A stretch of 55,258 nt of DNA from Aneurinibacillus thermoaerophilus. Its GTDB lineage: Bacteria; Bacillota; Bacilli; Aneurinibacillales; Aneurinibacillaceae. The stretch covers positions 1 through 55,258 of the forward strand of contig NZ_FNDE01000021.1 of NCBI RefSeq assembly GCF_900099925.1. Reading direction: 5' to 3'. This document shows, piece after piece, positions 51,458 through 55,258 of this stretch. The translations under genes and the position numbers were made by a program. The notes below the pieces were generated by a model, which was not told the DNA's origin, did no database searches, and saw nothing but the letters and a program-made list of their open reading frames with translations. Positions within the stretch are counted from its first letter, which is position 1; every line of letters starts with the position of its first letter.

Positions 51458-52075
51458 GTGAAAGTGCCAAAAATATCCGAAGCCGTTGTTAGAAGGCTTC
51501 CCGTTTATTTGCGTTATTTGAACAATTTAAAAGCAATGAACGTTCGTACCGTTTCATCGCAGCAGCTTGGCGAAGCGCTTGATTTAAACCCGGCACAAAT
51601 TCGCAAGGATCTTGCCTGCTTTGGCGAGTTCGGCCGCAAGGGGATTGGCTATGAGGTTAACTATCTTGTGGAAAAAATCAAAAGCATTCTTAAGCTTGAC
51701 AAGCAGGTTAACGTTTTGTTGGTCGGAGCGGGGCATCTTGGACATGCGATTAGCAATTACAACGCTTATTTAAAAGATAGTATGCGAATTGTCGCTATTT
51801 TTGATGCAGATCCGCATAAAATCGGTAAAAAAATCGTAAATATGATGATTCAACCATTGGAAGAATTGGCGAATACGGTAAAAGAAAAGAATATCCGCAT
51901 TGCCATTATTGCGGTGCCAGCGGACGCAGCACAGGCGGTGGCCGATCGCCTTGTCGCCGCCGGTATTACTGGCATTCTAAATTTCGCACCAACGAATTTA
52001 CGCGTGCCGGAAAACGTTCGCGTCCATGATGCGGATGTAACGATGGAACTGCATAGCTTGGCGTATTATTTATAA
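51458..52075 (+). CDS. rex: Redox-sensing transcriptional repressor Rex
   Basis: Rex represses anaerobic and NADH-related genes and is released from DNA by NADH. The 205-residue protein has an N-terminal winged helix (VSSQQLGEALDLNPAQIRKDL, about residues 32-52) and a Rossmann domain with GAGHLGHAI. GTG 51458 follows GAAGGAGAGG, a strong site. It stands 22 nt after dinG. No Rex palindrome was recognised with certainty in the window. Confidence 0.96.
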   Translation: MKVPKISEAVVRRLPVYLRYLNNLKAMNVRTVSSQQLGEALDLNPAQIRKDLACFGEFGRKGIGYEVNYLVEKIKSILKLDKQVNVLLVGAGHLGHAISNYNAYLKDSMRIVAIFDADPHKIGKKIVNMMIQPLEELANTVKEKNIRIAIIAVPADAAQAVADRLVAAGITGILNFAPTNLRVPENVRVHDADVTMELHSLAYYL

Positions 52076-52084
52076 AAAATAGAG

Positions 52085-52123
52085 TAAGGAGGGAAGGCGC
52101 GCTTCCCGCGCGCCTCACATATT
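52085..52123 (+). promoter_or_regulatory. Split ribosome site with a hairpin spacer
   Basis: TAAGGAGG (52085-52092) is the only Shine-Dalgarno before ATG 52124, but it lies 31 nt away. Between them is a perfect 7-bp G/C hairpin, GGCGCGC (52096-52102) with GCGCGCC (52108-52114). Folding it leaves about 12 nt of effective spacing. A competing stem, GGGAAG (52091-52096) with CTTCCC (52102-52107), would mask the 3' end of the Shine-Dalgarno. The two stems are mutually exclusive. Confidence 0.6.
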
Positions 52124-53422
52124 ATGAAAACAATTATCATTCATGCAACAGTGCTTACAGTGAATAACACGAATGAAGTCATCTATGACGGAGCCATCGC
52201 ATTTGAAAATGGGGTTCTTACATATGTAGGGCCAACGCCGGAAGAATTGGACACATACGGTGAAGTGATTGACGCGCAGGGTCGGATTGTTATGCCGGGC
52301 CTTGTGAATACGCATGGGCATACCGGCATGTCGCTTTTGCGTGGATATGCCGATGATCTGCCGCTACAGGAGTGGCTGGAGACGAAAATGTGGCCGCTGG
52401 AAGCGCAATTTACCGAAGAACATGTGCGCTGGGGCACTTCTTTGTCTATTGTTGAGATGCTGAAGACGGGTACGACGACATTTGTGGACATGTATGATCA
52501 TATGGACATAGTAGCTGAGCTTACCGTCGCATCCGGCATGCGTGCCCGTTTGTGCCGCGGCGTTATCGGACTTTGCCCGCCGGAAGAACAAACGAGAAAA
52601 CTCGAAGAGGCGAGTGCTTTTGCCGCGAAGTGGAACGGTGCGGCAAACGGGCGCGTTATGACAATGATGGCGCCGCACGGAGCTTACACTTGTCCTCCGG
52701 ATTATATTGAGCGGATTGTGGCACGCGCCCATGAATTGGACTTGCCGGTGCATATTCATATGTCCGAGACGGAATGGGAAGTACAGCAAAATGTGAACGA
52801 TTACGGCACCCGTCCGGTAGAGCATCTGGAGAAGCTTGGTGTATTTAACAGGCCGACGCTCGTTGCGCACGCTGTTCATTTAACGGATGAGGAATTGGAT
52901 ACGCTGGCGAAATATGATGTAAAAGTATCACACAATCCGATCAGTAATTTGAAGCTGGGCAGCGGTATTGCACGCGTGCCGGACATGATGGAACGGGGGA
53001 TTTGTGTTTCGCTTGGAACGGATAGTTCTGCAAGCAATAATAACCTTGATTTATTTGAGGAAATGAAAATGGTGGCGCTTTTGCACAAGGGTCACCGCCA
53101 GAATCCGGTGCTCGTTCCGGCGACGGAGGCGCTGCGTATGGCAACGATTTATGGCGCAGAAGCGGTTTTTATGGAGGATCGAATTGGATCGTTGGAAGTC
53201 GGCAAACAGGCAGATTTTATTATTCTCGACTCCGGCAGGGTGTTTTTCCATCCGTCGCATGATCCGATTTCGCATGTGGTATACGCGGCGAGCGGGCGGG
53301 ATGTAAAAGACGTATTCGTTCAAGGCGTGCAACTGGTGAAAGACGGCAGATGTTTGACGATGGATGAGGAAGCGGTTATTGAAAACGCAAACCGGATGTT
53401 TGCCAGACTGGAGAAAAAGTAA
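52124..53422 (+). CDS. mtaD: MTA/SAH deaminase-family amidohydrolase
   Basis: The family deaminates 5'-methylthioadenosine and S-adenosylhomocysteine and resembles chlorohydrolases such as TrzN/AtzA. The 432-residue protein has the metal motif NTHGHTGM (HxH), the later metal His in IHMSETE, VAHAVHL, and the Asp in GTDSSASNNN. ATG 52124 is the only start that gives the beta-strand IIIHATVLTV. The true substrate cannot be told from the sequence. Its unusual ribosome site is described separately. Confidence 0.85.
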   Translation: MKTIIIHATVLTVNNTNEVIYDGAIAFENGVLTYVGPTPEELDTYGEVIDAQGRIVMPGLVNTHGHTGMSLLRGYADDLPLQEWLETKMWPLEAQFTEEHVRWGTSLSIVEMLKTGTTTFVDMYDHMDIVAELTVASGMRARLCRGVIGLCPPEEQTRKLEEASAFAAKWNGAANGRVMTMMAPHGAYTCPPDYIERIVARAHELDLPVHIHMSETEWEVQQNVNDYGTRPVEHLEKLGVFNRPTLVAHAVHLTDEELDTLAKYDVKVSHNPISNLKLGSGIARVPDMMERGICVSLGTDSSASNNNLDLFEEMKMVALLHKGHRQNPVLVPATEALRMATIYGAEAVFMEDRIGSLEVGKQADFIILDSGRVFFHPSHDPISHVVYAASGRDVKDVFVQGVQLVKDGRCLTMDEEAVIENANRMFARLEKK

Positions 53423-53437
53423 GGGAAAGAAAAAATT

Positions 53438-53457
53438 CCCCGCCGTTTGCGGCAGGG
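53438..53457 (+). terminator. Hairpin after mtaD, weak terminator
   Basis: CCC (53438-53440) and GCCG (53442-53445) pair with CGGC (53450-53453) and GGG (53455-53457) around a TTTG loop, with one mismatch. No T run follows, so it may only protect the 3' end. Confidence 0.45.
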
Positions 53458-53510
53458 ACAATGGAAGATGGATAGGTAGGGGAATTAAAATGCGAATCCT
53501 TGCCTGTGGT

Positions 53511-53696
53511 TTAAGGCCGTTCCATTATGATCCAAGAATGAAGGTTCGGCTGACGGAGAGATGCAAAATCATCTTCTCCCGCATGGCGAAACGGGGAGGA
53601 GAGAAGCATCCATGAAGGATTTCGTTCATCCGACAATAGCCTGGCCACTTCTTCCGGCAATTGTTCAAAAAGACGCGCAAGGTGCGGTTGCTTCAC
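53511..53696 (-). CDS. Putative 61-residue acidic protein
   Basis: Minus-strand GTG 53696 has a strong ribosome site, AGGAGGAGGTGA, upstream. The peptide, with LARLFEQLPEEVARLLSD near the start and a Phe/Trp-containing end, is amphipathic and soluble-looking. No family was recognised. On the plus strand a 41-residue frame (53490-53615, also with a modest ribosome site) overlaps it; only one of the two is likely real. The minus-strand one has the better ribosome site and length. Confidence 0.33.
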   Translation of the reverse strand: MKQPHLARLFEQLPEEVARLLSDERNPSWMLLSSPFRHAGEDDFASLRQPNLHSWIIMERP

Positions 53697-54382: not shown

Positions 54383-54450
54383 CTTCTTTTTCCCTTCTAT
54401 TCGTTGTATAATAGGAATGTACGTTCGTAGTGAGAAAGAAGGGGATTCGA

Positions 54451-55258
54451 ATGATTCGAACTGCAAAAGTCGCTTTTACTGCATCCCGCTCCACCATAGA
54501 TGCCCTGTTTGCTTTAAATCGCTTCTCGGCAGAGGTGTGGAATATGTGCTTGGCTGAAGCGAAAGTCTACCACCAGCAAACCGGGCAGTGGATCGGTAAA
54601 ACCGAACTACAAAAACGCTTGAAGCGTCGTTTTCCAATGCACAGCCAGAGCATACAAGCTGTGTGCCACAAATATCTTTGGGCGCGAGATAGCGCACATC
54701 AGGCCCGAAAGGAAGGGCACACGAACGTCCGCTATCCATATAAGCAAAAGAAGTATTTCAACACAAAGTGGGCGGCGGACGGTTTTACCATTCATCCCAA
54801 CGGACGCATCTCGTTGAGTCGCGGCATCTGGGAAGGCAAGCGTCAAGCACCGCTCGTTGTTCGTGTGACTCAGTTACCCGCTGGAACTGTAAAAGAGATT
54901 GAACTCGTCTACGACCGGGGCCTGCATCTGTGTCTTACCTACGACGATGGCAAGAAAGCACCGAACCCGCCGGGTTCGCATACATGCGCCATTGACCCGG
55001 GTGAAATTCATACGCTTGCAGCCGTCGCAACAACTGGAGACAGTCTCATTGTGACCGGACGAAAAATCCGAAGCATTCACCGCCTGCGTAACAAGAAGCT
55101 TGCAGAGCTTCAGCGAAAAATGAGCAAGTGCCAGAAATACAGCCGTCAGTGGAAGCGGTACAATCGGGCGAAACAATATCTTCTTTCTAAAAGTAAACGC
55201 CAGTTACAGGATGCCTTGCACAAAACGACGAAACAGTTTGTCGAATGGGTGGTCGCCC
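54451..55258 (+). CDS. tnpB: TnpB (IS200/IS605 OrfB), truncated by window edge
   Basis: The frame runs from ATG 54451, after AAGAAGGGG, to the end of the window without a stop, 269 codons visible. The N-terminal helical recognition part starts MIRTAKVAFTASRSTIDALF, and the first RuvC Asp is in CAIDPGEIHTLAAVA (near residue 188), followed by the basic helix RNKKLAELQRKMSKCQK. TnpB is an RNA-guided nuclease that maintains IS200/IS605 elements; its guide RNA would lie past the right edge. The usual GIDLG-type motif here reads IDPGE. No tnpA is visible on the left, so it is probably an IS1341-like solo element. Confidence 0.88.
   Translation, partial: MIRTAKVAFTASRSTIDALFALNRFSAEVWNMCLAEAKVYHQQTGQWIGKTELQKRLKRRFPMHSQSIQAVCHKYLWARDSAHQARKEGHTNVRYPYKQKKYFNTKWAADGFTIHPNGRISLSRGIWEGKRQAPLVVRVTQLPAGTVKEIELVYDRGLHLCLTYDDGKKAPNPPGSHTCAIDPGEIHTLAAVATTGDSLIVTGRKIRSIHRLRNKKLAELQRKMSKCQKYSRQWKRYNRAKQYLLSKSKRQLQDALHKTTKQFVEWVVA

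Follow-up and report, generated by a model that had tools for sequence, protein, structure and literature searches.

A putative split translation initiation site with a conserved spacer hairpin upstream of an mtaD-like gene in Aneurinibacillus

The locus

The window considered here is the whole 55,258-nucleotide stretch of Aneurinibacillus thermoaerophilus DNA (NCBI RefSeq assembly GCF_900099925.1, contig NZ_FNDE01000021.1, positions 1 to 55,258), in which the stop codon of rex, a gene for a redox-sensing repressor, is followed after 48 nt by the ATG of a co-oriented amidohydrolase gene (Table 1). All of the 25 NCBIfam models, listed among 52, score the product of the latter gene under their own cut-offs, including the model for MTA/SAH deaminase (404.9 against a cut-off of 779 bits), and 'mtaD-like' is therefore the right wording for it. 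Its start codon is supported by alignment: in the family, nine orthologues match it without a break (G001-G006 and G008-G010), and all of them align from residue 1.

Further downstream, a small convergent ORF of 61 aa, with GGAGGAGG in its start region, occupies the minus strand together with a terminator-like hairpin that carries a T-run (together 53437-53696). The plus-strand sequence TAGGTAGGG beside this ORF recurs in all ten family loci inspected. A small RNA or small ORF on the plus strand was considered and set aside, the minus-strand ORF with its own terminator being the simpler explanation; a 41-aa plus-strand reading gave no Pfam or NCBIfam match at E values up to 1. Towards its end the window holds a TseB-like gene and, after it, an OrfB_IS605/TnpB-type gene that runs past the window end.

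Table 1. Features at and around the start site of the mtaD-like gene (positions in the window)
Feature	Position	Strand	Remarks
rex, redox-sensing repressor gene	51458..52075	+	Several NCBIfam Rex models above cut-off; upstream neighbour of the mtaD-like gene
Shine-Dalgarno sequence AAGGAGG of the mtaD-like gene	52086..52092	+	UAAGGAGG identical (8/8 columns) in 4/4 hairpin-bearing genomes
Alternative SD-masking stem GGGAAG/CUUCCC	52091..52107	+	52091-52096 with 52102-52107; probably incidental, not conserved
5' flank, GGAGG to stem	52093..52095	+	3 nt; GAA in the window, CAA, AAA and CAA in the other three genomes
Spacer hairpin	52096..52114	+	Arms 52096-52102 and 52108-52114; loop 52103-52107 (UUCCC)
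3' flank, stem to ATG	52115..52123	+	9 nt; equal length in four genomes
mtaD-like amidohydrolase gene	52124..53422	+	Pfam Amidohydro_1 above cut-off
Terminator-like hairpin with T-run	53458..53437	-	Belongs to the small convergent ORF
Small convergent ORF	53511..53696	-	61 aa
OrfB_IS605/TnpB-type gene	54430..55257	+	Pfam above, NCBIfam below cut-off; runs past the window end

Anatomy of the start site

A spacer of 31 nt (52093-52123) separates the sole Shine-Dalgarno (SD) sequence of the mtaD-like gene from its ATG. This is what a preliminary description of the sequence had stated, and its perfect 7-bp G/C stem filling the gap is likewise present. Pairing of A52095 with U52115, missing from that description, brings the stem to 8 bp, and the gap reads AGGCGCGC-UUCCC-GCGCGCCU, i.e. 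an 8-bp perfect hairpin followed by 8-9 unpaired nucleotides. The same description had pointed to a second stem that overlaps the SD; its two arms are indeed there, with a predicted energy of -9.9 kcal/mol, 6.4 weaker than the -16.3 kcal/mol of the spacer hairpin. Between SD and ATG of the window genome there is no in-frame ATG, GTG or TTG and no second SD, and the CTG or GTG triplets found in some orthologues are not shared; an alternative start codon or a small upstream ORF was therefore set aside. A terminator was rejected as well, for no T-run follows the hairpin on its 3' side and the terminator listing shows none there. The partner of AAGGAGG is presumably the anti-SD at the 3' end of 16S rRNA; a pattern search for that end matched none of the 11 family genomes, perhaps because rRNA is absent from these sequences.

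Could such a hairpin be a product of chance? A bare 7-bp stem with G-U pairs allowed is common, occurring in 4434 of the 55,227 overlapping 31-nt windows of the stretch. Stability is another matter: a fold as stable as -16.4 kcal/mol is attained by only 14 of the 11,046 31-nt stretches sampled from the window, dinucleotide shuffling of the spacer yielded an 8-bp stem 33 times in 20,000, and the fold of the surrounding 75 nt (52076-52150) has a z-score of -2.79, being equalled in stability by 2 of 200 shuffles. Stability together with conservation (see below) distinguishes the main hairpin from chance stems.

Conservation among relatives

Orthologues were sought by protein in the window genome (G000) and 60 relatives, plus 11 family genomes, and the upstream stretches of 30 loci were read. 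The layout GGAGG, 3 nt, hairpin, 9 nt, ATG occurs in four of the seven Aneurinibacillus genomes, namely G000, A. danicus (G002), A. aneurinilyticus (G003) and G005, with hairpins of 19, 22, 23 and 23 nt and stems of 7-8, 8, 10 and 10 bp, respectively. Their loops differ (UUCCC, GCGGCA, GGG and UGA), and the SD stands 31-35 nt from the ATG in all four, beyond its working range, and no nearer SD is found. The other three genomes of the genus (G001, G004 and G006) lack the hairpin, with 10, 5 and 5 nt, respectively, between GGAGG and ATG. Such a hairpin is likewise absent from G008, G009 and G010, which lie outside the genus and in which rex is missing from the 1.5 kb upstream. By contrast, rex is adjacent to and co-oriented with the mtaD-like gene throughout the genus (7/7). 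A comparison of eight loci with Rfam, at E values up to 1, matched no family at the junction (one match elsewhere stayed below the gathering score); the hairpin thus does not match a known RNA family in that database, riboswitch or other.

A dispersed repeat has a copy between the rex stop and the SD in G003 and G005, where the end of rex lies 156 and 201 nt, respectively, from the ATG; the SD-hairpin-ATG unit is intact in both. Staying intact despite a repeat after rex, the unit must be a part of the downstream gene that needs no nearby rex stop. The extra stretch itself had been considered as part of the start site and was discarded once it proved to be a repeat copy. The repeat (L003, G003:C180:70294-70394; L004, G005:C4:4526215-4526283) is structured, starts near ATAAAGTGAAACTTCACT, ends near TACTGCCCGTTAAGGCGGGATAAA, measures roughly 100-190 nt, and has 7 matches in G003, 22 in G005 and none in the other nine family genomes. 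Among 72,556 plasmid records one, from Pseudalkalibacillus, has a 78% match to one of its copies, and a comparison with Rfam returned two sub-threshold matches only. We take it to resemble the bcr-type repeats of Bacillus cereus.

A different arrangement is seen in A. tyrosinisolvens (L035), where rex is again upstream and the mtaD gap of 51-54 nt holds a different, longer G/C-rich fold between SD and ATG, again with 9 nt between the fold and the aligned ATG. The start is uncertain there, with an in-frame ATG six bases upstream. The same junction is present in G007 (L067/L068), which the genome set assigns to another genus, and the mtaD gene of this entry (L035 and L067/L068) is broken by a frame change in the assembly.

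Divergence, covariation and history

Has selection preserved the arrangement? When the hairpin-bearing genomes are compared in their six pairs, five pairs agree at 47-54% of the third codon positions of the gene and G003-G005 at 75%, while across all six the stem arms have 10-14 of their 14 bases in common and the SD 8/8. The 3' flank of G000 shares 2-3 of its 9 bases with the other three genomes; those of G002, G003 and G005 agree with one another at 7-8 of 9, and hence only G000 tests the length of this flank independently of its sequence.

All changes in the 7-bp stem preserve pairing, and two pairs vary from G-C to G-U. The eighth, U-A, pair is missing in G000, and standard pairs stand in 31 of 32 cells. 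The preliminary description had named the lack of compensatory change in relatives as a point that would count against a looped-out spacer; one stem pair is G-C in two species, G-U in one and A-U in one, which is such a change and leaves the looped-out spacer unrefuted, though as evidence from four sequences it is modest. Sliding one arm against its partner lowers the share of paired cells from 97% to 16-75%; the best of these slides, by +2, retains 75% paired cells and one double change, and scores 0.250 against 0.271 for the true register. Random placement of four transitions leaves all pairs intact in 16% of trials, a figure that falls to 0.7% with any substitution allowed, and the covariation score of the four sequences is matched by 258 of 500 shuffles. 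Taken by itself, then, covariation points in the right direction, and weakly so with four sequences; the stronger evidence is the persistence of stem, SD and lengths.

The mtaD tree places G004 and G006 outside a group of G000, G002, G001, G003 and G005 (88/91; 96/96 in the rex tree), within which G001 groups with G003 and G005 (95/95 in the mtaD tree, 79/85 in the rex tree). Mapped on the mtaD tree, the hairpin calls for two changes among ten family genomes, with A. tyrosinisolvens/G007 unscored. The simplest account would be one gain and one loss, the loss having occurred in G001 and having accompanied its 10-nt spacer.

How rare is the layout?

A strict scan asked for GGAGG and, 0-5 nt after it, a perfect stem of 7-12 bp, followed at 3-12 nt by the ATG of an ORF of at least 60 codons. 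Run on the window plus 400 kb of G005, it returned only the two mtaD sites; with 400 kb of G000 added to the window instead, it returned the mtaD site and one other (L204), which was dismissed as a start site because it sits within a longer open frame. Control triplets in place of ATG gave 0 or 1 match each; GTG/TTG gave 1 (L162, GTG) and 0. A looser scan (AGGAGG, a gap of 20-60 nt, any single folded domain of -12 kcal/mol or lower) found ATG matches in 5 of 363 pairs, and ORFs of at least 100 codons follow only at the two mtaD sites; seven control triplets matched in 7 of 1750 pairs, two of these matches heading at least 100 codons. Other matches from looser scans (L148, L151, L156, L189, L200 and L202) were judged by folds and translations alone. 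There is no general excess of folded SD-start gaps in the sampled sequence. As for ordinary start sites, among the sampled ORFs with a near SD (234 and 230) it stands at 6-10 nt in 181 and 167 and at 12 nt in 5 and 7; long ORFs without a near SD amount to 93 of 327 and 103 of 333, by a rule that takes the best of several starts.

Two weaker candidates also came to light, with evidence below the mtaD level. In the methionyl aminopeptidase gene map of A. danicus (TIGR00500 above cut-off; L112:1501-1563, also L207), a 41-nt structure with GGCGC/GCGCC as its closing stem lies 3 nt after AAGGAGG and 9 nt before the ATG, flank lengths equal to those at mtaD. An ordinary near SD precedes its orthologues in G003 (89% identical) and G005 (88%), and the start of the A. 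danicus gene is ambiguous owing to in-frame ATGs upstream. The other candidate, in G005 (L157:9486-9549), is a gene that we take to be paaX-like, with AAAGGAGG, 2 nt, a 44-nt structure, 7 nt and GTG. The corresponding region of G003 (L238) is identical, and its conservation therefore says little. A 7-codon ORF, perhaps for a leader peptide, has its ATG 8 nt after the same SD, which may serve that ORF instead.

A split initiation site and its alternatives

The reading that we favour, and to which we would assign a probability of about three in four, is that the mtaD-like gene possesses a split (looped-out) translation initiation region of the kind described for phage T4 genes 25 and 38. The 16S anti-SD would pair with AAGGAGG, the hairpin would remain folded and be bulged out of the mRNA path, and the ATG would then see about 12 unpaired nucleotides (3 + 9) rather than 31. 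The hairpin would accordingly be a constitutive structural spacer that enables the use of a distant SD, with no two-state switch involved. We infer that this is the SD used for initiation, that initiation takes place on the folded form and that unfolding would lower expression. The looped-out spacer proposed in the preliminary description thus gains support, because the hairpin with its 3- and 9-nt flanks recurs in four of the seven genus genomes, its pairing is kept and the relatives that have no hairpin have short spacers; the switch to which it had been tied in the same proposal does not (see below). The hairpin is stable and lies wholly between SD and AUG, and the effective spacing predicted for the folded form falls at the long end of the sampled range. 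Against the split site stands the fact that these 12 nt exceed the 6-10 nt usual among sampled ORFs. A further caution is that folding predictions show the SD of G002, G003 and G005 as partly paired (mean unpaired 0.35-0.47), in G003 and G005 with bases immediately 5' of the ATG.

Perhaps the hairpin serves mRNA stability, processing or the rex:mtaD ratio instead, and initiation merely tolerates it. A stable G/C hairpin in an intercistronic gap would suit such a role, and both SD and stem are kept; nevertheless, this explanation seems unlikely to us because it accounts neither for the equal 3-nt and 9-nt flanks nor for the short SD spacing of the hairpin-less genus genomes, and because an unfolded spacer would leave the SD 31-35 nt away, beyond the usual range, with no nearer SD at hand.

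The two-state translational switch, in which the spacer hairpin would be the ON form and the second stem, by hiding part of the SD, the OFF form, draws on the fact that both stems occur and are mutually exclusive in the window genome. The masking stem is moreover finished 7 nt earlier in transcription and could form first, and the A. danicus map site also has a 7-bp stem able to hide its SD. The proposal fails because the second stem is much weaker, is found in only one of the four hairpin-bearing genomes (it is missing at mtaD of G002, G003 and G005) and looks like a chance product, an equally long masking stem arising in 797 of 5000 shuffled spacers of G000 and in 552 of 5000 of the A. danicus map. 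With this second fold neither conserved nor of comparable stability, and with the eight loci devoid of Rfam matches at the junction, a switch appears very improbable.

An equally poor prospect is a mobile or palindromic repeat that was inserted between SD and ATG and is merely tolerated there. The hairpin is a perfect inverted repeat present in only part of the genus, another repeat family adjoins the site in G003 and G005, and one of the six inspected seed-pattern matches, that at the A. danicus map, combines a structured gap with a similar start (SD-GAC-GGCGC). However, a covariance model built from the four sequences found four strong matches in the 11 family genomes, all at mtaD (E values of 7.4e-15 to 2.1e-12; next best 0.048), in a search that scored 150 of the 309-943 first-look candidates per genome. 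The seed AAGGAGGNAAGGCGC with one mismatch gave 32 matches, of which the 28 outside mtaD equal the 28 of the reversed control, and the stem persisted while third positions diverged to about half. Since there are no copies at many unrelated loci in the 11 family genomes, a dispersed palindromic repeat was rejected. Finally, translational coupling, whereby ribosomes finishing rex would reinitiate at the ATG and make the distant SD dispensable, has in its favour the constant neighbourhood of the two co-oriented genes and the short gap in the window, and is hardly tenable in view of the much longer gaps of G003 and G005, in which SD and hairpin are the same.

If the split site is real, might folded SD-to-start gaps be a means of control in Aneurinibacillus? 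The fold would be needed for translation, its opening by heat, an RNA helicase, RNase III or a trans-acting RNA would lower expression of the gene, and the mtaD gap of A. tyrosinisolvens, the A. danicus map and the paaX-like gene of G003 and G005 would be separately evolved cases. We regard this extension as speculative and rather improbable. Riboswitches and RNA thermometers are comparable in having a hairpin beside a start codon; control that requires a fold would, if true, be the reverse of a thermometer that hides it. Irrespective of any control, the mtaD site, long conserved with fixed flank lengths, along with a close relative that seemingly lost hairpin and long spacer together, would amount to a natural experiment that bears on the reach of the ribosome and on what it can bulge out. 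It is also a warning for start-site predictors, which seek the SD near the start.

Comparison with known systems

To our knowledge, looped-out SD spacers are known only from T4. Among the open-access literature matches listed, a hairpin between SD and start codon was recognised only in T4 genes, which is weak as evidence of absence elsewhere. PMC3555230 describes looping out between two SD-like sites in the leader of chloroplast psbA. According to PMC3014915, an RNA structure in T4 gene 38 cuts the SD-AUG spacing from 22 to 5 nt; in T4 gene 25, with its split or accommodated ribosome binding site, the spacing is cut from 27 to 11 nt, as supported by mutational and probing evidence (reporter, DMS) (Nivinskas 1999; Malys and Nivinskas 2009, both as told in PMC3014915), and the hairpin is present in close relatives and absent from more distant ones (PMC3014915). 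Mutations in the stem lower initiation in both genes.

Measured against these accounts, the mtaD site would resemble gene 38 in that a structure between SD and AUG is predicted to shorten the functional spacing, and differ from it in an effective spacing that is longer, about 12 nt rather than 5. The likeness to gene 25 is closer, with a hairpin that would bring 31 nt down to 12 and that is confined to close relatives; unlike the phage gene, with its reporter and DMS data, the mtaD-like gene is a Gram-positive chromosomal enzyme gene whose site is known by comparison alone. With the SD-sequestering structure of T4 gene e, as mentioned in the same source (PMC3014915), it shares a hairpin by the start codon and, in the window, a weak masking alternative. 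It departs from the gene e type in that the conserved hairpin leaves the SD outside the stem, the masking stem is not conserved and there is no conserved loop. The putative looped-out spacer would be of a kind already known from T4, and what would be new is its occurrence as a conserved case on a bacterial chromosome.
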